Source: Haliclystus octoradiatus
Lineage: Eukaryota > Cnidaria > Staurozoa > Stauromedusae > Haliclystidae
Direction: 5' to 3'
Assembly (NCBI GenBank): GCA_916610825.1
Contig: OU744446.1
Span: forward strand, 17,825,131-17,889,130
Length of the DNA: 64,000 nt
Numbering within the stretch: the stretch's first letter is position 1; every line of letters starts with the position of its first letter. Positions 14,313 through 52,757 of the stretch are shown piece by piece. The notes below the pieces were generated by a model, which searched no databases, had not been told where the DNA came from, and saw nothing but the letters and a program-made list of their open reading frames with translations. A program made the position numbers and the translations under genes.

Positions 14313-16201
14313 ATATGCGATTTTGTCAAATGTCGATATTTCAGATAAAAATTACTCCATGTGATATATAGATCTTTAATAAAATATGAAAATCAATTTC
14401 AGTGAAAGTTTTGATCAAAAAATTCATTTAATCTTCAAAAAGTTTTTGTACACAAATGGCATATTTCCAAAAATTGTACACATCTTATGTACCATGCGAT
14501 TTTGTCAAATGTCGATATTTCAGATAAAAATTACTCCATGTGATAAATACATCTTTAATAAACTATGAAAATCAATTTCAGTGAAAGTTTTGATCAAAAA
14601 CTTCATTTAATCTTCAAAAAGTTTTTGTACACAAATGGCATATTTCCAAAAAGTGTACACATCTTATGTACCATGCGATTTTGTCAAATGTCGATATTTC
14701 AGATAAAAATTACTCCATGTGGTATATACATCTTTAATAAACTATGAAAATCAATTTCAGTGAAAGTTTTGATCAAAAACTTCATTTAATCTTCAAAAAG
14801 TTTTTGTACACAAATGGCATAATTTCAAAAATTGTACACATCTTACGTACCATGCAATTTTGTCAAATGTCGATATTTCAGATAAAAATTACTCCATGTG
14901 GTATATACATCTTTAATAAACTATGAAAATCAATTTCAGTGAAAGTTTTGATCAAAAACTTCATTTAATCTTCAAAAAGTTTTTGTACACAAATGGCATA
15001 TTTCCAAAAAGTGTACACATCTTATGTACCATGCGATTTTGTCAAATGTCGATATTTCAGATAAAAATTACTCCATGTAATAAATACATCTTTAATAAAC
15101 TATGGAATTCAATTTCAGCAAAAGTTTTGATCAAAAACTTCATTTAATCTTCAAAAAGTTTTTGTACACAAATGGCATATTTCCAAAAAGTGTACACATC
15201 TTATGTACCATGCGATTTTGTCAAATGTCGATATTTCAGATAAAAATTACTCCATGTAATAAATAGATCTTTAATAAACTATGGAATTCAATTTCAGCGA
15301 AAGTGTTGATCAAAAACTTCATTTAATCTTCAAAAAGTTTTTGTACACAAATGGCATATTTCCAAAAATTGTACACATCTTACGTACCATGCGATTTTGT
15401 CAAATGTCGATATTTCAGATAAAAATTACTCCATGTAATAAATACATCTTTAATAAACCATGGAATTCAATTTCAGCGAAAGTTTTGATCAAAAACTTCA
15501 TTTAATCTTCAAAAAGTTTTTGTACACAAATGGCATATTTCCAAAAATTGTACACATCTTATGTACCATGCAATTTTGTCAAATGTCGATATTTCAGATA
15601 AAAATTACTCCATGTGATAAATACATCTTTAATAAACTATGAAAATCAATTTCAGTGAAAGTTTTGATCAAAAACTTCATTTAATCTTCAAAAAGTTTTT
15701 GTACACAAATGGCATATTTTCAAAAATTGTACACATCTTACGTACCATGCGATTTTGTCAAATGTCGATATTTCAGATAAGAATTACTCCATGTGATAAA
15801 TACATCTTTAATAAACAATGGAATTCAATTTCAGCGAAAGTTTTAATAAAAAACTTCATTTAATCTTCAAAAAGTTTTTGTACACAAATGGCATATTTCC
15901 AAAAATTGTACACATCTTACGTACCATGCGATTTTGTCAAATGTCGATATTTCAGATAAAAATTACTCCATGTGATATATAGATCTTTAATAAAATATGA
16001 AAATCAATTTCAGTGAAAGTTTTGATCAAAAACTTCATTTAATCTTCAAAAAGTTTTTGTACACAAATGGCATATTTCCAAAAATTGTACACATCTTACG
16101 TACCATGCGATTTTGTCAAATGTCGATATTTCAGATAAAAGTTACTCCATGTGATATATAGATCTTTAATAAAATGTGAAAATCAATTTCAGTGAAAGTT
16201 T

Positions 16202-16219
16202 CGTAGCGCGATGATTGCG
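16202..16219 (+). repeat. Left candidate terminal inverted repeat of the island
   Basis: The sequence begins CGTAGCGCG at the exact satellite junction. Compared with the reverse complement of 22529-22546 it matches at 13 of 18 positions, including the first seven. Confidence 0.55.
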
Positions 16220-17326
16220 ACAAAGGCCTTATTCACGGTTGCGTGAAGAGCAAATTTGGGCAAAAAACACGCACATTTTGGCATAAATTGTCCATTTATT
16301 AAAAATATTTATAGCGAAAACAATCAATACGGTTGGAAATCATATCAGAGAATGAAAATATAACATTGAAAACAAGTCATACCTTTCAATTCATTACGGC
16401 GAATATATTATTTACTATATTATGTTCATAACTTTTGAATTTCTTACATTGTTAATGGCGATTTAATACAGCAGAAGTTAGTGGCAGCAAAATTATCGAT
16501 ATCTGATAAGCGACGAGGGCTATAAACACAGTACGGTTGGAATATTACAGAACATGTTCTGATCTAAATTAAGCTGTTAAAATAAGTTTCCAAATCGTTG
16601 TAAATCATATATCGTTGCCAATGGAAAACATAGCATTATTCATGTTTCAAACATGAAATGGAGCTTGTAAATAACGGCATCCTAAGCAATCTATGATCTC
16701 AAACTTCACCCAAAACGTGTATAGGTCCTTCGAGAAAGACGTTCATGTGCTTTGGCAATGACTGGCCTTTTTATCTAGCCTCCATCTATAAGTATTTCTG
16801 TCATGAAAGTGAAGCGATTTTATGTTTAGTTTCCGCCCCTTTATTGGGGGCAACACTCCCCGTTTTACCGATGATCTTCTGTACAATGCAGATAGCGCCG
16901 CTACAGGAATAAGTTTTTGCGTAGAATGAAATGATAGGTCTACAGCTACATTAACTGTGTGATTATAACTAAAGTGATACCTTACCAAGGAAATAATTTT
17001 AAATCCACCTCCTTAAAATCGCAAATCGAATTCAAAAGGTTTATAGTATTTTATGAGGTACAGCAAGCCTAGGGGGATACACATTACACTGTTTTTGAAT
17101 GTCTAAGAAACATTACCAAAATGTGTAGTATTTGATTTATTTTATTTATATTTACAGCTATGTCAGCTGACATCAAGCGCTGTTTTACTGCTATTAGATA
17201 ATTATATCTAGTGTTTATTATAAGTGCACAAGTAGCACAGCGGCTAAGTGCCCGGAGAGACCTTCATGCGATTCTTTGTCGGTTAATATGTTATTTGCAA
17301 TTGCCTATAAATGGTTATATCTCCTC
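16220..17326. other. Left flank of the island, no supported gene
   Basis: I see no gene I can support. An 81-codon minus-strand frame at 16743-16988 has no recognisable motif and no splice or transcription context. This stretch is downstream of the minus-strand transposase-like gene, so it may be 3' non-coding sequence of the element. GCG-containing words near the left end may be subterminal sites. Confidence 0.5.
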
Positions 17327-17553
17327 CAAAAGAACAGAAGCAATATCATGCAGAAATAATAATATCAGAAGGCAGGAACATATTTTTACAGTAAAGCGAA
17401 AACAATGAAGCAATCATTTTTCCATATTTCAGGAATTATCAAAAGAACAGAAGCAATATAATGCAGAAATAGTAATATCAGAAGGCAGGAACATATTTTT
17501 ACAGTAAAATCAAAAACAATGAAGCAATAATTTTTCCATATTTCAGGAATTAT
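17327..17553 (+). repeat. Tandem duplication, two copies of about 113 bp
   Basis: Copy one (17327-17439) and copy two (17440-17553) both begin caaaagaacag and end tttcaggaattat. They differ by a few substitutions and small indels, for example atcatg versus ataatg and gtaaagcg versus gtaaaatc. The unit has no coding potential. Confidence 0.85.
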
Positions 17554-17609
17554 AGATTATAATAACATTATACAGTGCTTAGAAGTGACGCTATACAAAT
17601 ATAGTTTTC

Positions 17610-17641
<32 letters not shown>

Positions 17642-17764
17642 ATTATTATCATTATCATTATTATTATTATTATTGCTATATTATTACTATTACTATTACC
17701 ATAACCATTACTATTGCTATTATTATTATAACTATTATTATTACTATTATTATTATTATTATTA
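17610..17764 (+). repeat. TTA/ATT microsatellite with interruptions
   Basis: About 155 bp of ATT-type trinucleotide repeat, interrupted by TATC, ACT and ACC variants. It lies between the end of the transposase-like gene (17960) and the 113-bp duplication. The minus-strand ORF across it, rich in Asn and Ile, is an artefact of the repeat. Confidence 0.93.
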
Positions 17765-17959
17765 AGCATTGATTTTGAGTATATTAAATTATAATATAAT
17801 TGGATATATAATTGAGTATATTGAAGTACATTATAAATTTGCGTGGGTATAAAACTGCAACCTACCATAACACATGATTTGAAGAAGAAAATTTTTTGCA
17901 ATGAAATTCATCAGTTCCAAGGGAAGGGAATTATCAGACATGCAAATGACTAAGGTTGG

Positions 17960-18927
17960 TCAGGCATCATAAAAAAAACCTCGAGTGTGGCAATTAACTG
18001 CTTGAGCAGCAGCATTCCTTGGAGTAGTCACTCTATTTATGGCACGATTCATTCTGTGATTTAAATATTCCACCGACTGCTGTTGGAAGCAATGGATATT
18101 ACCAAAATTTTCATATAGCCACGGTATATGTAGTAATAAGTGGATATATGTTGAGAAGCTAGAAGGACAGAATGCTCTTCTAAAGTTTGCCAGAAAGTCA
18201 ACTATATTATTTTTAAGAGCAGCATATGTTTCATTGTCATTTGCAGTTCTGATAGATTCCCATACACTATGCCAAGCAGAAAAGGCTTTTTCAATCTCTT
18301 CTATTTTTTGTAATGACAGCTCAAAACAGAATGAAGGTAATTTTTCTCCACAGAAAACATTAGAAAACATTTTTTTTCTCATAGACATGGTCAATTTTGA
18401 AAATTTAGTTCCTTCGCTGTCATTACCTTTCATAGAAAAGCCTGTGATGCCTTCTGATTGACATAATGCATTGAACTTTTCCCTTCCCCTGTCACTGATA
18501 AGATCAAGGCAGCGTTGAAAGAGCTGATCACTGACTCTAAGATAACAATGCATAGTATCAATGAACACAAAGTTGAATTTGCTTGAATCTACAAGAGGTT
18601 TGTTGCCGTCATTGTTATACCCAGGGTCAGTATCAAGCAGCGTGGGAAGGACAAACTTTTCCTCGATCAGCTGATAGCGGGGTACGCAAATATGATTGAA
18701 TTTGTTGTTAGGAATGCAACAATAGTCCCAATCCACTTTACTGCACTTACAATAAATACATGTGTTATGGCCAGTAGCAGCTTTATACCCCAGTATTGTC
18801 AGCATTGTTTTGTAATCAACGCACAAGTTGTGCTCCAACTGCACATCAGAATCAAATTCTTGAGACATGAATGATGGTAACTTCTGCCAGAAGCCACTAG
18901 CTTTATGAAGATCATAAGTCTCTGCAC
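17960..18927 (-). CDS. Transposase-like gene, last exon (second catalytic D and catalytic E)
   Basis: This exon supplies residues 279-600 of a predicted 600-residue protein counted from the ATG at 20768. The acceptor is ctcttccag ending at 18928, and the exon enters in phase 1, matching the donor of the preceding exon. Visible features are a Cys cluster CIYCKCSK (Cys335, 338 and 340) after LTILGYKAATG, the motif FIDTMHCYLR with Asp402, and near the C-terminus HIPWLYENFG followed by QQSVEYLNHR with Glu565. Gene order and motif order fit an RNase H-fold DDE transposase. From memory, this arrangement matches a large uncharacterised family found in many copies in cnidarians and other invertebrates. 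The IDTMHC context also resembles the I-D-A-L-H-C around the second catalytic Asp of RAG1. Both comparisons need a profile search. The exon is open to a TGA at 17960-17962. No clear AATAAA follows closely on the minus strand. Confidence 0.75.
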
Positions 18928-19535
18928 CTGGAAGAGAATCGACACAGAATGTGTTAGATAATTATGAAAAATAAGCTCCATCTTTACATGTTTTCATGTA
19001 GGTCAGTAGGATATAAATTATCAGACTAACAAGATTGATTTTGTTGTTGAAATCTATTGGTCTCAAATAAAAAGTTAAATCTCAATCCAAAACCCTAAAT
19101 TTATATCACAAATATACGACAAATAGAAGTAAGGAGTAAATTTGTATTGAAGTCAAGCACCTGAAACGTTTTTTTCAATATATGATACATAGGGTGATTC
19201 TGCTAGCAGGATTTTGAACGCCATAGTATATCGTCTACATTGCAACTAATTTAATGTGTATATGACAGACAGCTATGAAATTATGGCAACTGCTGCTATG
19301 AGCAGGTGGCCTTTTTATACAGGGTTGATTCGATATAAATATTATTTCAAGTGTGACCATCATAAATAGTGGTCAATGTATAGAGTGACTGTTAAAACAG
19401 GTCTGGCAGTATCAACAGATGAGGTGGTAGAAATCTAAGGACTTTGTTTTCAATACAGCATATGTAATTATTGTAACTTGATAGAACTATTTGAAGGTAA
19501 GCTTACACTAATAACATAATTAATAGATGGTTTAC
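18928..19535 (-). other. Intron (608 bp) of the transposase-like gene
   Basis: On the minus strand the donor is ccag|gtaaacc at 19536/19535 and the acceptor is cttccag|gtgc at 18928/18927. Phase 1 on both sides keeps the frame open, joining HSVPG to AETYD. No other gene was seen inside it. Confidence 0.75.
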
Positions 19536-19790
19536 CTGGAACTGAATGAAGAGGTATGATGTTATCAGCATTTTGACTTCCATCTACATGAGTTACAGAA
19601 AAGGTACAATTTGCTCGAAATTTGGTGGTGTTGTGACCATCAGCAGAGTATTTGAGTCTTATCACTTTGTCAGAAGAGGATGCCATCCTCGTTTCTATGA
19701 ATTTTCTGAACACGCTAATGATATTAGAAGCTTTCCTATCAGCGTCCTGTCGTGCCTTGCGGACTTTGAGTAACGATGGTTGATTATTTT
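19536..19790 (-). CDS. Transposase-like gene, exon with the first candidate catalytic D
   Basis: This 255-bp exon has an excellent acceptor (attcattttcag at 19791) and a donor gtaaacc at 19535, both in phase 1. It encodes about residues 194-278. It begins ENNQPSLLKVRKA and contains IRLKYSADGHNTTKF, with Asp244 as candidate first acidic residue. An S-x-D-G context on a beta strand is common for the first Asp of RNase H-fold transposases. Spacing to the second Asp is 158 residues and from there to Glu 163. The RAG1 spacings, as I recall them, are clearly different, so this would be at best a distant relative. Confidence 0.72.
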
Positions 19791-20188
19791 CTGAAAATGA
19801 ATGAATATATAAGCATGTGAGGAATGATAGTTGAAACATTTTAAGCTACATTTGAAGTTATGGATGTAAAACAGTTGACCAGAATCAAGATTCGTGTCTA
19901 TACAGTCAAACATATTATATCGGTTACCTCTATACAGCGGCAAAATTGTATTCTATTAAACAAACCCTGTTTATTAAGGTCACCTGTCTATAATGGTAGA
20001 TTTATCTATCCTCATATAGCTGGCTGTTATATAGAGGTTTCACTGTATATATGGTCAATTAAGCTTTATAGGAAATCAACTATTAAATTTTCAACAACTA
20101 AAATGGAAGGCTATTATGTATGTTTATTTAGATCTTTAAACTGTGGGCTGTAGGCTACACAGGTATTACCATCAACTGAAATCCTTAC
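19791..20188 (-). other. Intron (398 bp) of the transposase-like gene
   Basis: The minus-strand donor is aagg|gtaaggatt at 20189/20188 and the acceptor is ttttcag|aaaataat at 19791/19790, phase 1 on both sides. Splicing replaces a stop 12 bp into the intron with an open frame (M-K-E-N-N-Q). No gene was seen on the other strand. Confidence 0.75.
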
Positions 20189-20768
20189 CCTTCATAGCTA
20201 AGAAGCCTCTTTGTGAAGTTTTGGTGTCATCTAGCCGTTTACTCATTTTTCTTGGTGACACAACTTTTGTTAGGGCATGCTTCTCTCCTGTCAGTTTCTC
20301 AACTTCTTCTCTGATGACTTTAAGTTTTCGTTGAATTGTTCGTTTTGACTTTCCTCTTGTTCCAGGTGTTGACTTCCTTGCAAGGGATCTTCGTAATGCA
20401 GCAACAGTTTCGTCTTTACTGCAAAGTTCATTTTGTAAAGATGCAATCTTTTCATGCAAGCAATTAATTGCAGATCTTGAGTACACAGCAACAACAGGAA
20501 AAGACCCAAAATGGCCATTACTGAGCTTTTTTTCAAATGCTGCAAACTTAGATGAATTCGATTGCAATTTTAAATATCTTCCTTTCAGACGAAATATTTT
20601 TGTGCGGACATTTGGCTCCAATGACTCAATGCTTTCTGCTGATAAAACATCTTTTATTGATTCAATGATGGAGATTTGGCTGAGTTCAGCATATTTTTTT
20701 AATAAAGATTTTTTTTTCAAGTCTTGGATAACATCCCAATATGTCACAGATTGTCTACATTTTTCCAT
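20189..20768 (-). CDS. Transposase-like gene, N-terminal exon (coiled-coil region)
   Basis: Open from an ATG at 20768 (MEKCRQSVTYWD) to the phase-1 donor at 20188: 193 codons plus one base. With the two downstream exons this gives 1,803 nt, 600 residues. The exon is Lys/Glu rich with two likely helical or coiled-coil stretches (HEKIASLQNEL and RKLKVIREEVEKL), separated by a basic Ser/Thr-rich linker. No DNA-binding domain is recognisable. The frame is open for a few codons upstream of the ATG (EGFTGI) before a stop. The ATG overlaps the stop of the upstream frame as TAATG, so this may be the start of the protein or the continuation of exon 20768-21080 after a frameshift or a short intron. Confidence 0.68.
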
Positions 20769-21080
20769 TATTCCAGTAAAACCCTCTCAAAAGTAACTTT
20801 GACAGATAATGAGTACAGCTGCACTTTTGGTACCTTCCGTATAGTTGATTTCACATTTGTCACAGACGTCTTGATATCACGCCTTGTAACAGTCAGCAAT
20901 TTTATTTTTGTTTCAAAACTAGGAATAAGACGTCTGAAAATTTGAGAACAGCCTGGTGAGACGGTATACTGTATCTTGAAAGAGCTACGCCTGCAATTAA
21001 GTAATCGATGCTCAATTTTTTTAGATAAAACTTCCCAAGCACCACGGCACTCGTAGCTTGAACCTCTTTGCATGTTATAA
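20768..21080 (-). CDS. Possible upstream exon of the transposase-like gene, frame broken near 20785
   Basis: The minus strand has a good acceptor (cttttgtttgtag at 21081) followed by an open frame through MQRGSSYECRGAWEVLS (ATG at 21073) to a TAA overlapping the next ATG. It is basic and has two Cys but no named domain. It abuts the next exon in a different frame, with no ordinary intron between. Either a one-base difference broke a single exon, or a very short intron of about 50 nt (gtaccaaaag to tttgagag) joins them in frame. If real, the protein would gain about 100 residues. It is also possible that this is 5' untranslated sequence. Confidence 0.42.
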
Positions 21081-22528
21081 CTACAAACAAAAGTAATTGA
21101 AATAAATTAAAAATATACCAATATGAGTCATCATCCATCTACTCATGTCTCTATGTAGTGGATATGAAGTATGGTAAAATAAACTTAAACATTCATAATC
21201 AACTAGGAAGGCAGTCCATTCAAAAAGCACAATTTTAATTCAGTGTTACATAATATAGCATTGAAATTCTTTCTGGAAGATGTTACATTGTGATTTTAGA
21301 ATGATATGAGACCATATTCAGTTTTATATAATACAGTAATATAAATTCTTGAATTAAATGTATTGCCAATGTATTTATAGATTGCATTCAGGTAAATATA
21401 ATCATTGTCTATGTATATGATAATGAATGAATGATAGAATAATGTAACAAAAAAGTTGTGAGTCTCAGTCCCAATTCTGAGATAGCTTTTACACAGCTTA
21501 ACATAGTTTTAACATATTTTTAAGATGGTTACATAGTTAAAATCTCTTCAATAACAAAACTATAGTGTTGTCTTACCTTGCATTTACTGTTCCTCTCTTT
21601 CACCTTGACTCTGACTGCCAAACTTACCCTGAGTACTTACCTTTTATAGAGAAATTTAGCAAACATATTGTGCCTGGAGTCACGCACAGCGTAGTAAAAA
21701 TTGCCTCCAGTGCATCATCAAAATAGAATCAATTAGTCTCCTCACCCAGCATGGCCAAGAACAAAGCATACAACAGAAATAAGTAGACGAAATGAAATGA
21801 ATGACCAAAGGGCAAAACACTATGAACTGACTGTGTTTTAAACAAGGCATTATACGTCTATCATTTCTCAGTACTGTTGTTACCTGACATAGTTAGACAC
21901 AAAGACAGACATATGTCTATCGTTTGAAATGACTAGACATTGGCAGAAAAACAACGTTGACTAGTCAATTTCGTCGGCGTTGTTGGCTTGGCAGGCTTAG
22001 TTGATGTTGATGTAATGAGAAGGCCAATATTGAACAGAAAAACGCAAGGCAAGGCGACAGTCTTCCATAAACTATGGCATCTGATCAGATAATATTGCAC
22101 GTCAATAACAACTAAATAATCCAATCCCCTATGAAATAATATATAATATCTTGAACTTTCAGCTTTTAGGCCAAGTCTTGCTATAATTACTTTGCGCCGC
22201 TAGACACGCTGATGATCGCTGTTGTTTTGAAATGTTGGCTAGGCTAGGCCTATAGCATGATTTCCAATATGTTCGAGAACTATTGAATAAAAGCGATTAC
22301 AGTCGATACATAAAGCCAAAAAAAATGAAATACAATAAAAGTTAATATTTGGTTATAATATAATAAAATTCTGGATGATGTGCCGTACTTTAAAAAGAAA
22401 CACGACAAAAAATACTGAATTTAACTGAACAGAGAGCCGCCATCATTAAAATGATCAAATTGCGCCTTTTCTCTCAAAGTAGATGGGGTTTCTCCCCTAC
22501 ATCTTTGGACATGCGCATCTTGAAATAG
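21081..22528 (-). other. 5' region of the island gene, no supported ORF except a candidate 26-bp exon
   Basis: Upstream of the minus-strand gene and bounded by the right terminal repeat, this is the likely promoter and 5' leader of the element. It contains candidate donors on the minus strand (gtaagt at 21640 and gtaaga near 21570) and a GCCGCCAT word near 22436-22443. The 63- to 78-codon frames in it look like chance. Confidence 0.45.
21641..21666 (-). CDS. Candidate first coding exon of the transposase-like gene
   Basis: A strong minus-strand donor (aaaag|gtaagt at 21641/21640) follows a short open frame starting MFAKFLYK (ATG at 21666). It ends in phase 2, which is the phase required by the acceptor at 21081. 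This is an inference from splice signals and phase only; the frame stays open a little further upstream. Confidence 0.25.
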
Positions 22529-22546
22529 CGCTTTTAGCACGCTACG
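22529..22546 (-). repeat. Right candidate terminal inverted repeat of the island
   Basis: Read on the minus strand it begins CGTAGCGTG at the exact satellite junction and matches 16202-16219 at 13 of 18 positions. The satellite resumes at 22547 as ttgatcaaaaac. Confidence 0.55.
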
Positions 22547-25500
22547 TTGATCAAAAACTTCATTTAATCTTCAAAAAGTTTTTGTACACAAATGGCATAT
22601 TTTCAAAAATTGTACACATCTTACGTGCCATGCTATTTTGTCAAATGTCGATATTTCAGATAAAAATTACTCCAAGTGATAAATACATCTTTAATAAACA
22701 ATTGAATTCAATTTCAGCGAAAGTTTTGATCAAAAACTTCATTTAATCTTCAAAAAGTTTTTGTACACAAATGGCATATTTCCAAAAATTGTACACATCT
22801 TATGTACCATGCGATTTTGTCAAATGTCGATATTTCAGATAAAAATTACTCCATGTGATAAATAGATCTTTAATAAACTATGGAATTCAATTTCAGCGAA
22901 AGTGTTGATCAAAAACTTCATTTAATCTTCAAAAAGTTTTTGTACACAAATGGCATATTTCCAAAAATTGTACACATCTTACGTACCATGCGATTTTGTC
23001 AAATGTCGATATTTCAGATAAAAATTACTCCATGTGATAAATACATCTTTAATAAACTATGAAAATCAATTTCAGTGAAAGTTTTGATCAAAAACTTCAT
23101 TTAATCTTCAAAAAGTTTTTGTACACAAATGGCATATTTTCAAAAATTGTACACATCTTACGTACCATGCGATTTTGTCAAATGTCGATATTTCAGATAA
23201 AAATTACTCCATGTGATAAATACATCTTTAATAAACAATGGAATTCAATTTCAGCGAAAGTTTTGATCAAAAACTTCATTTAATCTTCAAAAAGTTTTTG
23301 TACACAAATGGCATATTTCCAAAAATTGTACACATCTTACGTACCATGCGATTTTGTCAAATGTCGATATTTCAGATAAAAATTACTCCATGTGATATAT
23401 AGATCTTTAATAAAATATGAAAATCAATTTCAGTGAAAGTTTTGATCAAAAACTTCATTTAATCTTCAAAAAGTTTTTGTACACAAATGGCATATTTTCA
23501 AAAATTGTACACATCTTACGTGCCATGCTATTTTGTCAAATGTCGATATTTCAGATAAAAATTACTCCAAGTGATAAATACATCTTTAATAAACAATTGA
23601 ATTCAATTTCAGCGAAAGTTTTGATCAAAAACTTCATTTAATCTTCAAAAAGTTTTTGTACACAAATGGCATATTTCCAAAAATTGTACACATCTTATGT
23701 ACCATGCGATTTTGTCAAATGTCGATATTTCAGATAAAAATTACTCCATGTGATATATAGATCTTTAATAAAATATGAAAATCAATTTCAGTGAAAGTTT
23801 TGATCAAAAACTTCATTTAATCTTCAAAAAGTTTTTGTACACAAATGGCATATTTCCAAAAATTGTACACATCTTATGTGCCATGCTATTTTGTCAAATG
23901 TCGATATTTCAGATAAAAATTACTCCAAGTGATAAATACATCTTTAATAAACAATTGAATTCAATTTCAGCGAAAGTTTTGATCAAAAACTTCATTTAAT
24001 CTTCAAAAAGTTTTTGTACACAAATGGCATATTTCCAAAAATTGTACACATCTTATGTACCATGCGATTTTGTCAAATGTCGATATTTCAGATAAAAATT
24101 ACTCCATGTGATAAATAGATCTTTAATAAACTATGGAATTCAATTTCAGCGAAAGTGTTGATCAAAAACTTCATTTAATCTTCAAAAAGTTTTTGTACAC
24201 AAATGGCATATTTCCAAAAATTGTACACATCTTACGTACCATGCGATTTTGTCAAATGTCGATATTTCAGATAAAAATTACTCCATGTGATAAATACATC
24301 TTTAATAAACTATGAAAATCAATTTCAGTGAAAGTTTTGATCAAAAACTTCATTTAATCTTCAAAACGTTTTTGTACACAAATGGCATATTTTCAAAAAT
24401 TGTACACATCTTACGTACCATGCGATTTTGTCAAATGTCGATATTTCAGATAAAAATTAATCCATGTGATAAATACATCTTTAATAAACAATGGAATTCA
24501 ATTTCAGCGAAAGTTTTGATCAAAAACTTCATTTAATCTTCAAAAAGTTTTTGTACACAAATGGCATATTTCCAAAAATTGTACACATCTTACGTACCAT
24601 GCGATTTTGTCAAATGTCGATATTTCAGATAAAAATTACTCCATGTGATATATAGATCTTTAATAAAATATGAAAATCAATTTCAGTGAAAGTTTTGATC
24701 AAAAACTTCATTTAATCTTCAAAAAGTTTTTGTACACAAATGGCATATTTTCAAAAATTGTACACATCTTACGTGCCATGCTATTTTGTCAAATGTCGAT
24801 ATTTCAGATAAAAATTACTCCAAGTGATAAATACATCTTTAATAAACAATTGAATTCAATTTCAGCGAAAGTTTTGATCAAAAACTTCATTTAATCTTCA
24901 AAAAGTTTTTGTACACAAATGGCATATTTCCAAAAATTGTACACATCTTATGTACCATGCAATTTTGTCAAATGTCGATATTTCAGATAAAAATTACTCC
25001 ATGTGATATATAGATCTTTAATAAAATATGAAAATCAATTTCAGTGAAAGTTTTGATCAAAAACTTCATTTAATCTTCAAAAAGTTTTTGTACACAAATG
25101 GCATATTTCCAAAAATTGTACACATCTTATGTACCATGCGATTTTGTCAAATGTCGATATTTCAGATAAAAATTACTCCATGTGATAAATACATCTTTAA
25201 TAAACTATGAAAATCAATTTCAGTGAAAGTTTTGATCAAAAACTTCATTTAATCTTCAAAAAGTTTTTGTACACAAATGGCATATTTCCAAAAAGTGTAC
25301 ACATCTTATGTACCATGCGATTTTGTCAAATGTCGATATTTCAGATAAAAATTACTCCATGTGGTATATACATCTTTAATAAACTATGAAAATCAATTTC
25401 AGTGAAAGTTTTGATCAAAAACTTCATTTAATCTTCAAAAAGTTTTTGTACACAAATGGCATATTTTCAAAAATTGTACACATCTTACGTGCCATGCTAT

Positions 25501-34669: not shown

Positions 34670-35034
34670 TGTTTTGCCAATTTTGAAAATCCTTATTCAC
34701 ATATTAATTGACTTCTTATTTGAGTATGAGGGTTCGAATACGGGGTCGAATACAAACACACGGACGATTCATAAGTTCATAACAATTTATTTCGTAATCA
34801 TCTCATGTTTCAATATATATAATTTCTAAAATGTTGTATGATTTCGTTTCGAATGTAGCTTCTCATACTGAAGTTTCTGAATTAGTCTAGGCTTTTCTAA
34901 AGGTATATTTTGCTTACATAATCAAAATTATTTAAAATATTTCGCAAGCTATAAAAATAACATAATGACGTAAATCAACACAAATAACATGACGTTTATA
35001 TTAAAAAAATGGCGGATATAAGATTAATCGATCA
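34670..35034 (-). repeat. 3' LTR of element 2 (365 bp)
   Basis: On the element strand it begins TGATCG and ends AAAACA. It is identical by eye to 40940-41304. Confidence 0.97.
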
Positions 35035-35043
35035 CTCCCCCTT
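35035..35043 (-). other. Polypurine tract of element 2
   Basis: On the minus strand aagggggag directly precedes the 3' LTR, as in the other two copies. Confidence 0.85.
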
Positions 35044-35104
35044 AGTGAGAAGTTTAATTTAACAAATTTTGAACGATAGATGAGATCAATCTTTATTCAT
35101 ATAA

Positions 35105-38100
35105 TTATCTTATTCTTTTTATACCAGCCAGGATTTCTTCTGTACCGTTGATGGCTTTTGCATCTATTTCTTCTTTTGTTGCCAATAGAATAAGCTTTGC
35201 AATAGGTCTATCATAACTTCCAGCTTTGTTTTGAATCTTCACCTTCCTGACAAGTCCGTCTGTACCAGGGAACGTTTCAGTTACCATAGCGACTGGCCAT
35301 ATTGCTCTCGGGGTAATTCCATTTAAGTTGTTCTTTTTTTCCAAAACAATATCTCCAACTTCCAGGTTTCTTCTTTGTGAAAACCACTTATTTCGACATA
35401 ATAGACGATTTGGCATATTCGATGACCAATAATTCCAGAAAATTTGAATACGCTTCTGAATTGATGCCATACGATCTTTTGGATGTATTTTATTTTCATC
35501 TTGTGGCTGTGGAAGAGTCAGATGATGTCCATACAGCAAGGAATTTGGTGTTATAATCTCGTTCATATCAATAGGATCCGCACTTGAGTTTGGCCAAAGT
35601 GGTCTTGAATTTATAAGATAAGCTACTTCAGCAAGAGCAGTCATCCATTCATCAGGCTTTAAAGTGTTGTTATAGCAATCTGCCATGGCGTCCAATGCTT
35701 TTCTGACCAAGTTGACAAATGTCTCAACAACTCCATTGTGATGGGACGCAGTAGGACAATTCCATAACCATTGGAAACCATTTCCTTTAATTCCGTTTTC
35801 TAGCACTTTTATATCCCATTCTTTTACTAACTTTTCTACTTTTGGAGATGCTCCAATTAAATTTGGTCCATTATCGCTGTACAGTTGTACAGGCTGAATT
35901 CCTTTCAAGCTGACGAATCTCCTAAGAGCCATTAGAAATTTTTCAGTTGAAAGACCTTCCCCACCTTCCTGGTCGTAACAGAACTCAAGGTGTATTGCCC
36001 TTGTGACGGTGCATACAAATAAGGCTACATGAGCATCTTTCACAGTTCCACGGTATAGCTTCGTTTTAAGTGGACCAAAGAAGTCGACAGCAGATGACCA
36101 GAAGGCAGGTTTGTCACAGTCCAGTCGAAAACTTGGGAGTTGACCCATCTTTTGTTCCAACAGAGGACGTTTCCTTCTTCTGCAGTATAGACAGTTCTTT
36201 CCAATTGTTTTCAATATTCTGTTGACTCCAATTATCCAGAGTCCTGATTGTTCAATCGCAGATCGTGTTCGGTTGACTCCGCAGTGTCCTGTTTGTTCAT
36301 GAAATTCTTTCGTAACCATGTTGATGACTTTTTTGTGATTAGTATAATGGTCATTTTCTTTGTTCCTTTTACATTTCGGAATGATTATTGGTGCTGCTAA
36401 GTCGGGCTTGAAATCTTTAAGGTGTTCTAATCTTCCACCTAATCTGTAAATTTTGTCTTCGTCATCAATGAAAGGACAGAGTTTCTTGAAATTCTTATCG
36501 TCAAAGTTAGTATTTCTTTGCAGAGCTTGATATATCTTCATTTTACCTCCTTTGTGATCAGTCTTGTTTGATTTTTCTGAAATTTTGTTAATTGCTTCTT
36601 CCATTGAGTTGCTATCTGCTGCAATTTGTAGTATTTGTTTACATTCTTCATCACTCATCTTTGTAATTGTGTTTGCAACCGAGAAGTAAGCATTCACCTT
36701 CTTTGCTATACAGGTCTTCTTTTTGCGCTTTTTTCTTTCAGGTTTTATTTCAGTCAAATCTTTTCTTAGCTCAATTTCTTTAGTGATATTTGCTGTTTCA
36801 AATTCTGGAATAATCTTTTCTTGTAAGAATTTCGGTCCTTGGTGCCATTGCTCTAAGTCTACATTGTTCGGTTTTGTCAGTGCATCTGCAGCATTCTCTT
36901 TAGAAGGAACATAATGGAAATCTTCAATCTTGGTTGTTTCTTGAATCTCGTTAATTCTCGCTTCAACAAATGCCTTCATCTGAGGAGTTCTTGATCTAAT
37001 CCAATGCAATACCACTTTAGAATCAACCCAGTATGAAATTGTGCTTGGTTTGATCATTAATGCTGAGACAATGTTCTTTACTAGTCGAGACATTACTAGT
37101 GTAGCAACTAATTCCGTTCGAGGTATTGTCCAACCTTTGACTGGTGTTACAAAAGATTTGGCTGCTACAAAGTGTACATTAAATGTGCCATCTTCTCTTT
37201 TCTGTCGTAGGTAAACGCATGTGCCAAAAGCTTTATCTCCGCCGTCGGAAAATGCATGCAGCTCAGGCAATTCGGTGTTGTTTTCTTCAGTGATGCAGCG
37301 CTCAATTTTGGTTGACAGCTTTCCTTCTAATTGTTTGAATCTATCCACCCAGTCATCAGCATCTTCTCCCACTATGGCTGTGTCCCAATCATATTTTTTT
37401 CTCCACAGTTGTTGTAAAGGAATTCTCAAGTTTACCAATGCTGGTGACAGAATTCCGAGAGGGTCCCAAACTTTGGCTATCATGCTTAAAATGATTCTTT
37501 TTGACAGTTTATGTTCTAGGGTCTTTGAAGATGCATCAATTTCAATCTTTGGTAGTTTTTTCAATTTCAGTGAGATTGTATCTATGTCTTTCTCCCAGTA
37601 GTGACCCAAAATGGTTGTATCACGATTTTCTGATAGGTTATTACTGTCTTCAATCTTCTTGTTCATTTTTTCTTCTAATTCAATGGAATTGGAATGCCAT
37701 TTCTTTATTTCAAACTTTGCTTTTGATAACAGTTGAGTTGTTTCTTTGATGACTTGTTCTGCTTCTCTAGGTTGATTTCTGGAGCTGGCAACATCGTCCA
37801 TATAGATGTGATTCTTTACGATGCTTGATCCAATTGGATAGTCCTTTCCAAATTTTGTTGCCAAATAGTGAAGACTTTCCTGTGACAAATCAGGACTTGG
37901 AGGGTCACCAAAAACAAGTCTTTGCCATTCATAAGCAGTTGGGTTTTCATTTCCTTCTTCAATCCATAGGAATCGATGATACTTTCGATCTTCTTCAGAA
38001 ATGCTGATCATATTGAACATTTTTCTTATGTCTCCTGTGAATCCAATCTGTTGCTCTCTGAAACCAATGAAGACCTTGAACAATGAGTTTAGTAAATCTG

Positions 38101-38917
38101 GCCCCTTTTCCAATGCTTTAGCTACTGATTGTCCACGGTAGATCTTTGCAGAGTTCCAAACTACTCTTTTGGGAGTTGATGCACTATCATCTCTTTCAAC
38201 TAGATGGTGTTCTAAGTAATGGGCCATTTCTCCTTCTTTGAGTTCTACCTTTTTCACAAATCCAGATTCTATTACTTCTTGAATTGCTCTTTGGTAGTCC
38301 TCCAATTTGTTTGTTTCTTGCAGTCGTTTTACTTTCCTCTTAAGATTGGTTGAAACTTCTTTGTAATTATTTGGTAGTCCTTCTGGATAGCCAGGTTTCC
38401 AAGGTAATCTGACTTCTATTCTCCCATCTTCATTGATTGTCGTGTTTTCTTTTGCTATCTTTATAAATCTAGCTTCTTCGATTTCCTTATCTGTACAAAC
38501 ACAGCGTTGCGTTGTGTTAACACCAACCAAATCTGACATCATTAGTGTGCTCATATTTTCAGTAGATGATATGTCTGTTTCTTCTGCTAGTGTGACTGAT
38601 GTGACTTTTCTTGTTGCTCCTGACTTCTTACTGACATGAGTTGTTCCACCAACGATTGTCCATCCTAATGGAAACTCGATTCCAATTGGGGCTGATTTGC
38701 TGCTCTCTTTCGTCATTCTTTGTAATTCTGTGTGTAACTCTTGAGCATCTCTCCCAATGATAACATCAATCTCACCACCATCTGTGTCTACAACTTCCTT
38801 GATTTGATTCAAATGTTCATTTTTTGCAAAGAATTCTTTGTGAAGTGATGCTGCTGCGCCACATGGTCTTTTCATTGCATAAGCTGTAATTCTTCCTTTC
38901 TCTGCCATGGGCTCCAA
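35105..38917 (-). CDS. pol: BEL/Pao pol: reverse transcriptase, RNase H, integrase
   Basis: The frame has 1,270 codons and is open from the gag-pol junction; it extends upstream to about 38977. Numbering from 38917, reverse transcriptase spans about 170-450, with Asp296 in FTGDIRKMF and the YMDD box at 372-375. RNase H has Asp557 (FSDGG), Glu602, Asp632 and Asp678. The integrase zinc module has His873, His878, Cys909 and Cys912. The DDE core has Asp944 (VDFFGPL), Asp1015 (SDNGPN) and Glu1065 (VVETF). A DUF5641-like tail follows. Together these would copy element RNA into DNA and insert it. There is no start codon at the 5' end of this frame; it would be made as a gag-pol fusion. In this copy a one-base difference near 38978 separates it from the gag-protease frame. 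All visible catalytic residues are present. Confidence 0.95.
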   Translation of the reverse strand: MEPMAEKGRITAYAMKRPCGAAASLHKEFFAKNEHLNQIKEVVDTDGGEIDVIIGRDAQELHTELQRMTKESSKSAPIGIEFPLGWTIVGGTTHVSKKSGATRKVTSVTLAEETDISSTENMSTLMMSDLVGVNTTQRCVCTDKEIEEARFIKIAKENTTINEDGRIEVRLPWKPGYPEGLPNNYKEVSTNLKRKVKRLQETNKLEDYQRAIQEVIESGFVKKVELKEGEMAHYLEHHLVERDDSASTPKRVVWNSAKIYRGQSVAKALEKGPDLLNSLFKVFIGFREQQIGFTGDIRKMFNMISISEEDRKYHRFLWIEEGNENPTAYEWQRLVFGDPPSPDLSQESLHYLATKFGKDYPIGSSIVKNHIYMDDVASSRNQPREAEQVIKETTQLLSKAKFEIKKWHSNSIELEEKMNKKIEDSNNLSENRDTTILGHYWEKDIDTISLKLKKLPKIEIDASSKTLEHKLSKRIILSMIAKVWDPLGILSPALVNLRIPLQQLWRKKYDWDTAIVGEDADDWVDRFKQLEGKLSTKIERCITEENNTELPELHAFSDGGDKAFGTCVYLRQKREDGTFNVHFVAAKSFVTPVKGWTIPRTELVATLVMSRLVKNIVSALMIKPSTISYWVDSKVVLHWIRSRTPQMKAFVEARINEIQETTKIEDFHYVPSKENAADALTKPNNVDLEQWHQGPKFLQEKIIPEFETANITKEIELRKDLTEIKPERKKRKKKTCIAKKVNAYFSVANTITKMSDEECKQILQIAADSNSMEEAINKISEKSNKTDHKGGKMKIYQALQRNTNFDDKNFKKLCPFIDDEDKIYRLGGRLEHLKDFKPDLAAPIIIPKCKRNKENDHYTNHKKVINMVTKEFHEQTGHCGVNRTRSAIEQSGLWIIGVNRILKTIGKNCLYCRRRKRPLLEQKMGQLPSFRLDCDKPAFWSSAVDFFGPLKTKLYRGTVKDAHVALFVCTVTRAIHLEFCYDQEGGEGLSTEKFLMALRRFVSLKGIQPVQLYSDNGPNLIGASPKVEKLVKEWDIKVLENGIKGNGFQWLWNCPTASHHNGVVETFVNLVRKALDAMADCYNNTLKPDEWMTALAEVAYLINSRPLWPNSSADPIDMNEIITPNSLLYGHHLTLPQPQDENKIHPKDRMASIQKRIQIFWNYWSSNMPNRLLCRNKWFSQRRNLEVGDIVLEKKNNLNGITPRAIWPVAMVTETFPGTDGLVRKVKIQNKAGSYDRPIAKLILLATKEEIDAKAINGTEEILAGIKRIR

Positions 38918-38922
38918 ACGTC

Positions 38923-40872
38923 CTACAGTGAGTTCATACTTCTGTGTGACTTCTTTATGATGGCTTCCTCCAACGACTCATAATGAATAGTAGTGTCTTC
39001 ACCTTGAAGGCCTAATGATTCTACAAAGTTTCTTCGAACCAGAGTTGTATCAGCACCTCCATCCATCAAACATGTTGCAGCTCTAATTTGTGTTGTACCA
39101 TCAGCATTTTTATAACCAGTTTTTATCCAGATCTTTAGTACAGGTAGTCTTGTTGCTGTAGATTCTTGTGAACTGTTGAGACGTTTCGTTGTTGTGTTAG
39201 TTGATGCTGTCCTCTGTGTGATATTGGCTGTTGAGGCTTCTTGATTTGAATATGTACTTCTGTGCAGTAAACTGTGATGTTTCTTTCTACAATGTTGACA
39301 TGTTACTTCTGATTTGCATTGTGGTCTAATGTGACCCTTTCCAAGACATCCAAAGCAATGGCCTTTGCTTTTACAGTATTCAGATCTCTCTGCTACTTCA
39401 AATTCTTTGAACTTGTTACAATCTTCTAATCCATGTTTTCCATTGTTACACAGTTGACAATTGAGGTCATTGGTTGTTTGCAAGACGTTGACTTTTGCTT
39501 CTTTGAAGTTCCTTGACTCTTTCTTTGATAATGTTTGCTGTTTCTTTTCTGTTCTGTAAGAATTTGATGATAACAGTCTTCTTTCCAAGAATTCTAAAAT
39601 ATAGTCGGCTGAGAGTTCTTCTTCTTTCATGTTCATTTTTCTTGCGATTCTGTTTTCTTGTGCCAACTGGTCTTCAATTTGATCTTCGAATTCCGCTCCT
39701 GTCTTTCTCTTCAAATCTTTGATGAATTCCTCATCTTCTGTACGGTTTCCTTTCCCAAAATCTTTTAGGTACATCATATGCGTACGTATTGTTGTGACAA
39801 ATGTTTGGATTACGTTTTGGTCTTTATCTTGTATAGGTTTTAATTTTCGGAAATTCCACATCAGTTCATCAGATATTTTTTTGTCAGTTACAACTAACTT
39901 TAACGCTTTCCATGCTTCGACTAATGTTGAGCGTCCTTCAATAGTTGTATGGTAAGCCTGTGGTATTGATTTTTCAAGCCATTGTAGCTTGACATCATCA
40001 TCCAAAACTCCGGCATTGTTCATTGCTGAAGTAAATCGCTTTTGGAAGGTTGGAAATCCTTTAAATTCTCCATTCCATGAATTGGGGGTGAATCCAGCTA
40101 AACGAATAGATGTTTTGTTTGAGTGTGTTGCCTTGCCCTCTATGTTAATTGCTCTGATGGCTGCAACTGCAGCAGCTTCAGCTGCTGTTTTTGATAAATC
40201 TTTGAGTAATTCTATTGTGATTATGTTGTCATCTCTTTTGGTTGCATTTCCACTTTCGTTTTCTTTGCTTTGTTGCCCCTCTTCATGGGTGAGTTCATCC
40301 TGATGTCTTTGATTTCCTGCTGTGATTTCTTTTTCTTTGTTATTTTCTGTTGGCCTTTCTCTTTCTACAACAGAGTCTGCGTCGTCTCCGTCGTTGTTTA
40401 CATCGGTGACGTCATTTTGATCATTTTGTTCGAAAGAGGCTGATTCATGATGGCTGCTTTCACCTCCTGCGTTTTCTTCATTAATGTTTACTTGATTATT
40501 TTGCGTTGCGGCGGCGATCTCTAACGCGCGTTTGTGAGTTTTTTCTGCTTCATTTTCTTCAAGTTCATGGATCATCTTCGTAGTTTCTGCTCTGATTTCA
40601 AAGTGAAGTTTTCTGCATTCATCAACTCTGTGATCTATTTCCAATTCTAATTGGCCATTTAAAGCGTTATTTTCATCGAGCACGTCTAGGTAAGTCGACG
40701 CTGTTTCTTCTACTTGTTTTCTAGCTTCAGTTACCTTGAATAGTATTGACTTCCAAGTGCCTATTGCTACAAATTCTTGTTCTTTTATCGTTGTAAATTC
40801 TTCTATTTCTCTATTATAAGCCTTTGATCTCCTCTTAAATCTCCTCCGAATCGCTTCAGCGTCGTCGGCCAT
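38923..40872 (-). CDS. gag: BEL/Pao gag with start of protease, frame ends early through a one-base shift
   Basis: A frame of 649 codons starts at ATG 40872, 67 bp after the 5' LTR. Residues 15-120 are charged and probably coiled coil, followed by an acidic, Asn-rich linker (120-215). A gag-type domain lies around 250-440 (RLAGFTPNSWNGEFKGF), and two CCHC zinc knuckles follow (Cys472-Cys485 and Cys506-Cys519). A further Cys/His cluster is at 525-537. The protease Asp604 is in LMDGGADTT. The usual D-S/T-G reads D-G-G here; BEL/Pao proteases vary at this position. The frame leaves the ancestral one near 38978, where element 3 has one more base, and stops 18 codons later. The product would contain gag and only the first part of the protease. 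Element 3 differs here by only a few residues. Confidence 0.93.
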   Translation of the reverse strand: MADDAEAIRRRFKRRSKAYNREIEEFTTIKEQEFVAIGTWKSILFKVTEARKQVEETASTYLDVLDENNALNGQLELEIDHRVDECRKLHFEIRAETTKMIHELEENEAEKTHKRALEIAAATQNNQVNINEENAGGESSHHESASFEQNDQNDVTDVNNDGDDADSVVERERPTENNKEKEITAGNQRHQDELTHEEGQQSKENESGNATKRDDNIITIELLKDLSKTAAEAAAVAAIRAINIEGKATHSNKTSIRLAGFTPNSWNGEFKGFPTFQKRFTSAMNNAGVLDDDVKLQWLEKSIPQAYHTTIEGRSTLVEAWKALKLVVTDKKISDELMWNFRKLKPIQDKDQNVIQTFVTTIRTHMMYLKDFGKGNRTEDEEFIKDLKRKTGAEFEDQIEDQLAQENRIARKMNMKEEELSADYILEFLERRLLSSNSYRTEKKQQTLSKKESRNFKEAKVNVLQTTNDLNCQLCNNGKHGLEDCNKFKEFEVAERSEYCKSKGHCFGCLGKGHIRPQCKSEVTCQHCRKKHHSLLHRSTYSNQEASTANITQRTASTNTTTKRLNSSQESTATRLPVLKIWIKTGYKNADGTTQIRAATCLMDGGADTTLVRRNFVESLGLQGEDTTIHYESLEEAIIKKSHRSMNSL

Positions 40873-40939
40873 TCTTGATTAATTTCTTTTTATTTCTAAT
40901 TTCTTTATCGAGACTTTAATTCGAACTATGATTCGAAAC
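40873..40939 (-). other. 67-bp leader between 5' LTR and gag of element 2
   Basis: The leader is identical in length to that of element 3 (47786-47852). It begins gtttcgaatcatag rather than with TGG, so a standard primer-binding site for the 3' end of a tRNA is not evident at the expected place. Confidence 0.7.
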
Positions 40940-41304
40940 TGTTTTGCCAATTTTGAAAATCCTTATTCACATATTAATTGACTTCTTATTTGAGTATGAG
41001 GGTTCGAATACGGGGTCGAATACAAACACACGGACGATTCATAAGTTCATAACAATTTATTTCGTAATCATCTCATGTTTCAATATATATAATTTCTAAA
41101 ATGTTGTATGATTTCGTTTCGAATGTAGCTTCTCATACTGAAGTTTCTGAATTAGTCTAGGCTTTTCTAAAGGTATATTTTGCTTACATAATCAAAATTA
41201 TTTAAAATATTTCGCAAGCTATAAAAATAACATAATGACGTAAATCAACACAAATAACATGACGTTTATATTAAAAAAATGGCGGATATAAGATTAATCG
41301 ATCA
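40940..41304 (-). repeat. 5' LTR of element 2 (365 bp)
   Basis: TG...CA termini on the minus strand. It is identical by eye to the 3' LTR at 34670-35034 and to both LTRs of element 3. Confidence 0.97.
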
Positions 41305-47420: not shown

Positions 47421-47439
47421 TGATCGATTAATCTTATAT

Positions 47440-47489
47440 CCGCCATTTTTTTAATATAAACGTCATGTTATTTGTGTTGATTTACGTCA
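47440..47489 (+). promoter_or_regulatory. U3 motif cluster: YY1-like and CRE-like words
   Basis: ccgccatttt (47440-47449) matches the core of the YY1 consensus. acgtca (47460-47465) and ttacgtca (47482-47489) resemble ATF/CREB sites, the second at 7 of 8 bases. All lie near the 5' end of the LTR, where enhancers of LTR promoters usually lie. They occur in all LTR copies here. This is motif matching only. Confidence 0.3.
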
Positions 47490-47633
47490 TTATGTTATTT
47501 TTATAGCTTGCGAAATATTTAAAATAATTTTGATTATGTAAGCAAAATATACCTTTAGAAAAGCCTAGACTAATTCAGAAACTTCAGTATGAGAAGCTAC
47601 ATTCGAAACGAAATCATACAACATTTTAGAAAT

Positions 47634-47641
47634 TATATATA
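47634..47641 (+). promoter_or_regulatory. Candidate TATA box of the LTR promoter
   Basis: tatatata lies in the middle of the LTR, about 25-30 bp upstream of a possible transcription start near 47665. The word is present in every LTR copy. The LTR is A+T rich, so the assignment is tentative. Confidence 0.4.
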
Positions 47642-47663
47642 TTGAAACATGAGATGATTACGA

Positions 47664-47669
47664 AATAAA
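47664..47669 (+). terminator. Candidate polyadenylation signal AATAAA in the LTR
   Basis: AATAAA occurs 23 bp downstream of the candidate TATA box, and the 3' LTR has the same word. It would fit an R region beginning near this point, but A+T-rich sequence produces this word by chance. Confidence 0.35.
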
Positions 47670-47785
47670 TTGTTATGAACTTATGAATCGTCCGTGTGTT
47701 TGTATTCGACCCCGTATTCGAACCCTCATACTCAAATAAGAAGTCAATTAATATGTGAATAAGGATTTTCAAAATTGGCAAAACA

Positions 47786-47852
47786 GTTTCGAATCATAGT
47801 TCGAATTAAAGTCTCGATAAAGAAATTAGAAATAAAAAGAAATTAATCAAGA
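47786..47852 (+). other. 67-bp leader between 5' LTR and gag of element 3
   Basis: It begins gtttcgaatcatagttcg. No TGG primer-binding motif is adjacent to the LTR end fixed by the target duplication. The words ttcgaatc and gttcgaat resemble the T-loop of tRNAs, so an internal tRNA region might prime, but this is speculation. Confidence 0.5.
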
Positions 47853-52322: not shown

Positions 52323-52383
52323 TTATATGAATAAAGATTGATCTCATCTATCGTTCAAAATTTGTTAAATTAAACTTCTCACT

Positions 52384-52392
52384 AAGGGGGAG
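52384..52392 (+). other. Polypurine tract of element 3
   Basis: aagggggag immediately precedes the 3' LTR. An AATAAA word also lies just after the gag-pol stop at 52330-52335. Confidence 0.85.
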
Positions 52393-52757
52393 TGATCGAT
52401 TAATCTTATATCCGCCATTTTTTTAATATAAACGTCATGTTATTTGTGTTGATTTACGTCATTATGTTATTTTTATAGCTTGCGAAATATTTAAAATAAT
52501 TTTGATTATGTAAGCAAAATATACCTTTAGAAAAGCCTAGACTAATTCAGAAACTTCAGTATGAGAAGCTACATTCGAAACGAAATCATACAACATTTTA
52601 GAAATTATATATATTGAAACATGAGATGATTACGAAATAAATTGTTATGAACTTATGAATCGTCCGTGTGTTTGTATTCGACCCCGTATTCGAACCCTCA
52701 TACTCAAATAAGAAGTCAATTAATATGTGAATAAGGATTTTCAAAATTGGCAAAACA
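52393..52757 (+). repeat. 3' LTR of element 3 (365 bp)
   Basis: TG...CA termini, identical by eye to the 5' LTR, followed by the aacaa duplication at 52758-52762. Confidence 0.97.

Follow-up and report, generated by a model that had tools for sequence, protein, structure and literature searches.

A young DNA transposon of Haliclystus octoradiatus with a 1-bp target-site duplication and a putative RAG1/CMCT-type DDE transposase

Transposons of the Transib and RAG1-like (RAGL) type duplicate 5 bp of target DNA, always or almost always, according to excerpts of PMC7204232, PMC9435367 and PMC8355894 (sources are cited here and below by PMC number and in excerpt). In RAG1 itself the catalytic residues are D600, D708 and E962, and the zinc ligands are C727, C730, H937 and H942 (PMC4914335). 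CMC elements make duplications of 2-4 bp (PMC4482050) and their transposases carry a C(2)C motif together with H(3)H (PMC4592977). The CACTA-Mirage-Chapaev-Transib (CMCT) clade, which includes Plavaka, ESTA and Lanisha, is described with duplications of 2-5 bp, 5'-CA..TG-3' ends in most cases and DDE transposases in which C(2)C and H(3-4)H stand after the second D and before the E (Kojima 2025, PMC12730594). Here we describe a 6,345-bp element, family F1, from the staurozoan Haliclystus octoradiatus. It lies in a stretch of 64,000 nucleotides (contig OU744446.1 of assembly GCA_916610825.1, positions 17,825,131 to 17,889,130; hereafter the window) and holds two open reading frames (ORFs), ORF1 and ORF2. 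The element is very probably a young autonomous DNA transposon that makes a 1-bp duplication and whose larger gene, ORF2, encodes a DDE transposase of the RAG1/CMCT type.

Genome-wide searches covered the species' own genome (262 Mb, 33 contigs). A 27-mer from the 3' side of the element found seven places, including the window (Table 1). The six other copies match the window copy over its whole length, with alignments ending within 2 bp of its limits (100 bp of flank compared per side). All are 98.2-99.97% identical over aligned pieces (n=7), with identical termini and unrelated flanks, and two (L009 and L014) lack ~240 bp ahead of both ORFs, near 21435-21677. The 600-residue ORF2 frame is kept in 7/7 copies, with 0 to 3 residue changes relative to the window copy. 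Because near-identical copies with common ends and intact frames stand in differing flanks, the F1 element is judged to be mobile and recent. Related families are designated F2 to F5; a complete F2 copy (L046:1307-7898) measures 6,592 bp.

An initial annotation, made from the window's sequence without database searches, had predicted a three-exon protein of 600 residues with two phase-1 GT-AG introns, and this structure is borne out. The joined exons of ORF2 give 1,803 nt, or 600 residues and a stop, and both introns are found again, with GT-AG ends and at matching positions, in F2 and F3, two paralogous families; for F4 the check covered intron 2 and the acceptor of intron 1. Protein identity to F1 is 44% for F2 (580 aligned residues), 43% for F3 and 48% for F4, and on such sequence grounds the gene structure is taken to be more than chance. 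Translation also confirms the annotated motifs, with SADG (Asp244) from residue 242, the cysteine cluster CIYC at 335, IDTMHC (Asp402) at 401, HIP at 545 and QSVEYLN, which overlaps the annotated SVEYLNHR and holds Glu565, at 562. To that annotation are added the mobile element around the gene and a second conserved frame, ORF1, whose stop codon overlaps the start of ORF2.

The five families were aligned with exon 1 in F1-F3, exon 2 in F1-F4 and F5 as two exon-3 pieces joined; the rest of the 76 genomic matches, being decayed, partial or near-copies, were omitted. Pairwise identity is 43-52% over aligned residues, and 121 positions that are occupied in at least four rows do not vary. D316, C335, C338, D402, H405, H541, H545 and E565 are invariant in 5/5 families and D244 in the 4/4 with exon 2 read.

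A D-D-E pattern had been annotated, and it is supported, with Asp244 and Glu565 kept as candidates; the matching second Asp is Asp316 and not Asp402. The latter was rejected for this place, as it aligns with Asp792 of RAG1, which is not among the catalytic carboxylates in the excerpt of PMC4914335. The annotated likeness of IDTMHC to IDALHC of RAG1 is upheld by the alignment. The further statement that IDALHC surrounds the second catalytic Asp was mistaken, since in mouse RAG1 this motif lies at 791-796 and the catalytic residue is D708 (PMC4914335). Spacings of 158 and 163 residues had seemed unlike RAG1 because Asp402 was misassigned; with Asp316, the span from second Asp to Glu is 249 residues, versus 254 in RAG1.

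The finer spacings compare with those of RAG1 as follows. From Asp316 the protein reads D-x-K-x6-G-x9-C-x2-C, as in RAG1 708-730, with 19 residues from D316 to C335 as from D708 to C727, and C335-x2-C338 in the place of C727-x2-C730. C335 and D402 are 67 residues apart (65 from C727 to D792), D402 and H545 are 143 apart (150 for the RAG1 counterpart), H545 and E565 are 20 apart (H942 to E962, likewise 20), and an Asn stands three residues past the Glu in both proteins. The order and spacing of the second Asp, C(2)C, D-x-x-H, H..H and Glu are alike in ORF2 and in mouse RAG1, RAGL and Transib. Asp244 has no sequence-based anchor in RAG1 because the RAG1 stretch compared starts at 620; we presume from its position that it matches D600. 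Asp244, Asp316 and Glu565 are named as candidate catalytic residues.

The resemblance to RAG1 was also found by a scan to which no motif was supplied, in which ungapped 24-residue segments of the family profile were compared with mouse RAG1 620-1007. The best four segments place 542-565 on RAG1 939-962, 316-339 on 708-731, 456-479 on 844-867 and 393-416 on 783-806, in that order of rank. They are colinear, with offsets of 388-397, and bring E565 onto E962, D316 onto D708, CxxC onto CxxC and IDTMHC onto IDALHC; ranks 5 and 6 fall outside this offset band. The band holds ranks 1, 2 and 4 when segments are 15 residues long, and ranks 1 to 3 when they are 36 long. Taken singly, the best segment is only suggestive: of 300 shuffles, 17 did as well at a length of 15 residues, 9 at 24 and 16 at 36. 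A banded chain score, the sum of the colinear segments, is 70.3 for the family against RAG1. It was reached by 0/400 shuffles (mean 24.3, SD 5.3, maximum 44.9) and by 0/400 shuffles of 24-residue blocks (maximum 52.8). As controls, reversed RAG1 scored 17.5 and the first 190 positions of the family 8.3, and none of 19 overlapping windows from a single unrelated protein went above 34.8. Homology of ORF2 to RAG1 is regarded as likely and not as proven. A search of the species' own genome with mouse RAG1 gave no match, and an empty answer from this search shows nothing. Set against the family alignment, none of the 109 pattern matches in viral collections and none of the 39 in prokaryote ones proved to be a relative. 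One viral contig (L008) was considered as a relative and rejected, as the hit spans 31 residues (E 9e-5, computed for this contig by itself) and the rest of the protein matches nothing meaningful there.

All seven F1 copies start with CGTAGCG and finish with CGCTACG, and ends of the form CGTAGCG or CGTAGTG (CGTAGYG) are present in F1, F2, F3 (left end only) and F5, those of F2 being CGTAGTGCCAA. Uninterrupted satellite at the window site reads AAAGTTTTGATC, one T fewer than both flanks of the element side by side. End patterns allowing at most 3 mismatches identified 20 left and 18 right ends (reversed control patterns, 0), and 17 F1-type copies pair both ends by position: the 7 described above, 8 of ~2.6 kb and 2 of 7.4 and 13.6 kb. 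Among the 21 F1 and F2 insertions with both ends read, a 1-bp duplication is found in 18, comprising 14/17 of F1 (7/7 plus 7/10) and 4/4 of F2, versus 0.277 expected per site (P 4.9e-8; flank bases transcribed by hand). The duplicated base is free (T7, A5, C3, G3). Flanks match over 2 bp in 2/21, about chance, and one of these is the window site, where the satellite favours 1 bp; duplications of 3, 4 or 5 bp occur in 0/21. The count leaves out three left-only ends (C11:12.09M, C4:22.28M, C7:20.93M), one right-only end (C4:4.83M), F3, for which a right end was not found, and F5, whose two ends come from different copies.

The two ends of the element differ inside the terminal repeats. A subterminal block, GCGCATGTC in F1, GCGCATGCG in F2 and F5 and GGGCATGCG in F3, starts at position 30-32, which leaves 22-24 bp between it and the heptamer, with 0-2 mismatches to GCGCATGCG in 4/4 5' ends (F1, F2, F3, F5). 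It was not found at 3' ends, where the best GCGCATGCG match has 3 mismatches in 3/3 read. The block was picked after being seen, and its 0 of 300 is therefore optimistic. The 5' end resembles a heptamer-spacer-nonamer signal, and the block may be a transposase site or a promoter motif: all four GCGCATGCG-like blocks are on the promoter side, and GCGCATGCGC is close to the NRF1 transcription-factor binding motif. Besides the window copy, the four 5' ends comprise those in L046, L047 and L077.

Several observations weigh against a mobile element of this kind with a RAG1/CMCT-type transposase. The chain statistic was devised for this analysis and has one comparator, mouse RAG1, and in the scans the third-best 15-residue and the fourth 36-residue segment fall outside the band. 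Established methods gave no significant match: Smith-Waterman scores with RAG1 were reached by 111/500 shuffles (exon 3, by 52/500), and hhalign with RAG1 returned E 0.048 and a probability of 1.1%. Among PDB sequences the ORF2 protein found nothing relevant (phmmer, best E 0.12) and the family profile had no match at E 10 or less (hmmsearch). Nothing in Pfam exceeded the cut-off for F1 ORF2 or F2-F5, the best E being 0.005 for a coiled-coil-type model with F1; for exon 1, too, the only Pfam matches are weak, coiled-coil-type and below cut-offs. A single-sequence AlphaFold2 model of exon 3 has a mean predicted local distance difference test score (pLDDT) of 39.8, too poor for a fold search, and in copy L010 the change D392Y alters a residue that all five families share. 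Finally, three of the 21 insertions do not show the 1-bp duplication. At C4:8.06M the flanks agree over two bases (tc), at C4:10.15M, with its 13.6-kb span, the element's first base is changed, and at C11:5.7M the first base is likewise changed.

The family could be an ordinary CMC member (EnSpm/CACTA, Mirage or Chapaev) whose duplication happens to be 1 bp, with the same mechanism. C335-x2-C338 and H541-x3-H545 between the second Asp and the Glu are the CMC signature (PMC4592977), and from the 2 to 5 bp of CMCT a single base pair is a small step (PMC12730594). The CMCT description fits at the protein level (D316, C335-x2-C338, H541-x3-H545 and E565 in 5/5 families, D244 in 4/4), and homology is significant by our own chain score and not by HMMER, Pfam, Smith-Waterman or hhalign. 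At the DNA level, however, both features depart from it: the duplication is 1 bp in 18/21, unlike the 2-4 bp of CMC and 2-5 bp of CMCT, and the ends are CG..CG where those of CMCT are mostly CA..TG. With ends of CGTAGYG and not CAC/CA, and with F1-F5 matching no Pfam transposase model, an ordinary CMC filing appears rather unlikely.

A divergent Transib or RAGL transposon, again with the same mechanism, would account for the colinearity with RAG1 707-970 and the equal D708-C727 and H942-E962 spacings, and the 5' heptamer, 22-24 bp and nonamer-like block recall the layout of recombination signals. The duplication in F1 and F2 is nevertheless 1 bp, with 5 bp at 0/21 sites, where 5 bp is described for Transib and RAGL (PMC7204232, PMC9435367, PMC8355894). 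The terminal heptamer is CAC-type there and CGTAGYG here, and RAG1 has H(4)H (H937/H942) in place of the H(3)H of H541/H545. The RAG1 model PF12940 does not match F1-F5, though the same model detects RAG1, and neither ORF1, ORF2 nor 10 other ORFs of at least 80 residues has a RAG2, kelch or PHD match. Of the annotated RAG1/Transib-like character, the link to RAG1 is supported and the marks of Transib are missing, and this filing is improbable. The chances given to these first two alternatives concern filing and not mechanism, and so overlap with that of an autonomous transposon with a RAG1/CMCT-type transposase.

Membership of another RNase H-core superfamily with a C/DxxH motif (hAT, KDZ, Kolobok, P or Dada), with a convergent likeness to RAG1, seems very improbable, as RAG1/CMCT is matched both in where C(2)C and H(3)H lie and over ~260 colinear residues, and the duplications described are 5-8 bp in hAT and 8 bp in Zisupton (PMC12730594, PMC4482050). 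Equally little credence is given to a duplication that is only apparent, with no stagger and a common base supplied by the element or by repair: no signal could be weaker than a single base, and Spy transposons are reported to make no duplication, yet left equals right in 18/21 insertions while the base itself varies, and at the window, the sole site with known uninterrupted sequence, the satellite has one T fewer.

The PHIS elements (Spy, Harbinger, ISL2EU, Pangu, Nuwa) are like F1 in that their target duplications are very short or absent. We know of no PHIS transposase described with a C(2)C/H(3)H insertion. One review sentence gives this group 'no TSDs or 1 bp to 4 bp' (TSD, target-site duplication; PMC10045372). 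Pangu and Nuwa are quoted with sequence-specific duplications, e.g., ANT and CWG (PMC4482050), whereas any base is duplicated here. That sentence aside, the excerpts of open-access full text retrieved with 1-bp-duplication phrasings named no DNA transposon and LINE-1 only. The family may already be catalogued in Repbase or nr.

The best label for the family is a new and recently mobile lineage in or beside the CMCT clade, set apart from CMC and Transib by the descriptions of those groups. It is not filed as Transib, because of the 1-bp and not 5-bp duplication, the CGTAGYG and not CAC ends and the H(3)H and not H(4)H motif, nor firmly as CMC, and its enzyme would work like a RAG1/CMC transposase. 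The stronger proposal of a separate superfamily-level lineage beside RAG1/Transib and CMC, marked by a one-nucleotide stagger, asymmetric ends (5' heptamer, 23 bp, nonamer-like block) and a stop/start-coupled ORF1, falls somewhat short of an even chance. Known staggers are 5 bp for RAG1-like enzymes and 2-4 bp for their CMC cousins; a natural relative with a 1-bp stagger, if true, would show how near one active-site architecture can bring two strand-transfer sites, and the family would be an outgroup for the origin of RAG1.

For the transposon with a RAG1/CMCT-type enzyme that is preferred here, the following mechanism may be proposed. ORF2 would form an RNase H-type core from Asp244, Asp316 and Glu565, with a large insertion that gathers C335/C338 and H541/H545 on zinc, as in RAG1 and CMCT. 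The transposase would bind the CGTAGYG ends and excise the element, whose 3' ends would then be joined to the two target strands at points one nucleotide apart, leaving the 1-bp duplication. An accessory protein could be made from ORF1 on the same transcript, with re-initiation at the overlapping stop and start. As the gene looks intact in seven copies, direct tests are possible of excision, of binding to the ends, of what ORF1 does and of the stagger.

ORF1 is conserved beside the transposase gene. Identity among F1, F2 and F3 is 37-42%, and in 3/3 pairs the differences increase from codon position 2 to 1 to 3, as in coding sequence. A genome search gave 51 matches, and every one of the 7 F1 and 4 F2 copies has a match next to it. 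The junction with ORF2 is an ATGA overlap in F2, and in F3 ~26 nt lie between stop and start. ORF1 has no significant match in Pfam, and its single-sequence structure model (pLDDT 53.3) is too poor for a fold search. It is probably a small accessory protein, and coupled re-initiation of ORF2 at the stop/start overlap is offered as a guess. A small ORF that overlaps the transposase start would be an unusual coding layout for a cut-and-paste element.

Shorter copies share the F1 ends. The ~2.6-kb class occupies 8 genomic places, of which one was read (L074, G000:C6:8180970-8183597). Its ends are those of F1 without mismatch, its interior is 74-85% identical where pieces align, ORF1 is broken and the transposase exons are missing; copies of this kind would be expected if an F1-type transposase mobilised them in trans. 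Short ORF1 remnants appear among the genome search matches at several other ~2.6-kb places. A decayed relative at G000:C1:14546146-14550602 (L039, L041, L043, L044), ~80% identical to F1, frameshifted and partly duplicated, is an older wave of the same lineage.

Table 1. Coordinates, in the window, of the F1 element and its features.
Feature	Position	Strand	Remarks
Complete DNA transposon, family F1, 6,345 bp	16202..22546	genes on minus strand	exact ends in window copy and 6/6 fetched copies; interrupts satellite
Target-site duplication, 1 bp, left copy (T)	16201..16201		
Target-site duplication, 1 bp, right copy (T)	22547..22547		
3' terminal inverted repeat CGTAGCG	16202..16208	+	
5' terminal inverted repeat CGTAGCG	22540..22546	-	read on minus strand
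Subterminal block GCGCATGTC (F1)	22508..22516	-	23 bp inside 5' heptamer
ORF1, 101 residues + stop	20768..21073	-	TAA overlaps ORF2 start (TAATG)
ORF2 (putative transposase) exon 1	20189..20768	-	residues 1-193
ORF2 exon 2	19536..19790	-	carries Asp244 (SADG)
ORF2 exon 3	17960..18927	-	carries Asp316, C335/C338, Asp402/His405, H541/H545, Glu565 and stop
Codon of Asp244, candidate first catalytic Asp	19639..19641	-	invariant in 4/4 families with exon 2 read (F1-F4)
Codon of Asp316, candidate second catalytic Asp (RAG1 D708)	18815..18817	-	invariant in 5/5 families
Codon of Asp402, D-x-x-H motif (RAG1 D792/H795)	18557..18559	-	second Asp of the initial annotation
Codon of Glu565, candidate catalytic Glu (RAG1 E962)	18068..18070	-	invariant in 5/5 families

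Within the element, downstream of the gene, a 113-bp direct duplication lies at 17327-17553 (2 copies, 94% matches) and is present in 6/6 aligned copies. Weak Pfam matches of an ORF at 17557-17907 cover a TTA repeat. Most of the window is a 179-bp tandem satellite (1053-34671 and 41305-64000), for which TRF, counting across the F1 element, reports 186.4 copies with 82% matches, and which is possibly centromeric, judged by monomer size. The array is broken three times, at 16202-22546, ~34.7-41.3 kb and ~47.4-52.8 kb, by three young insertions. Besides F1, these are two copies of a long terminal repeat (LTR) retrotransposon, which we take to be BEL/Pao, at 34672-41304 (minus strand) and 47423-52756 (plus strand). 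They lie in opposite orientation and are 99.8-99.9% identical over aligned pieces. The first has two identical LTRs of 365 bp, the second lacks ~1.3 kb, and 5-bp duplications, CCATG and AACAA, can be seen by eye on the flanks of the two copies.

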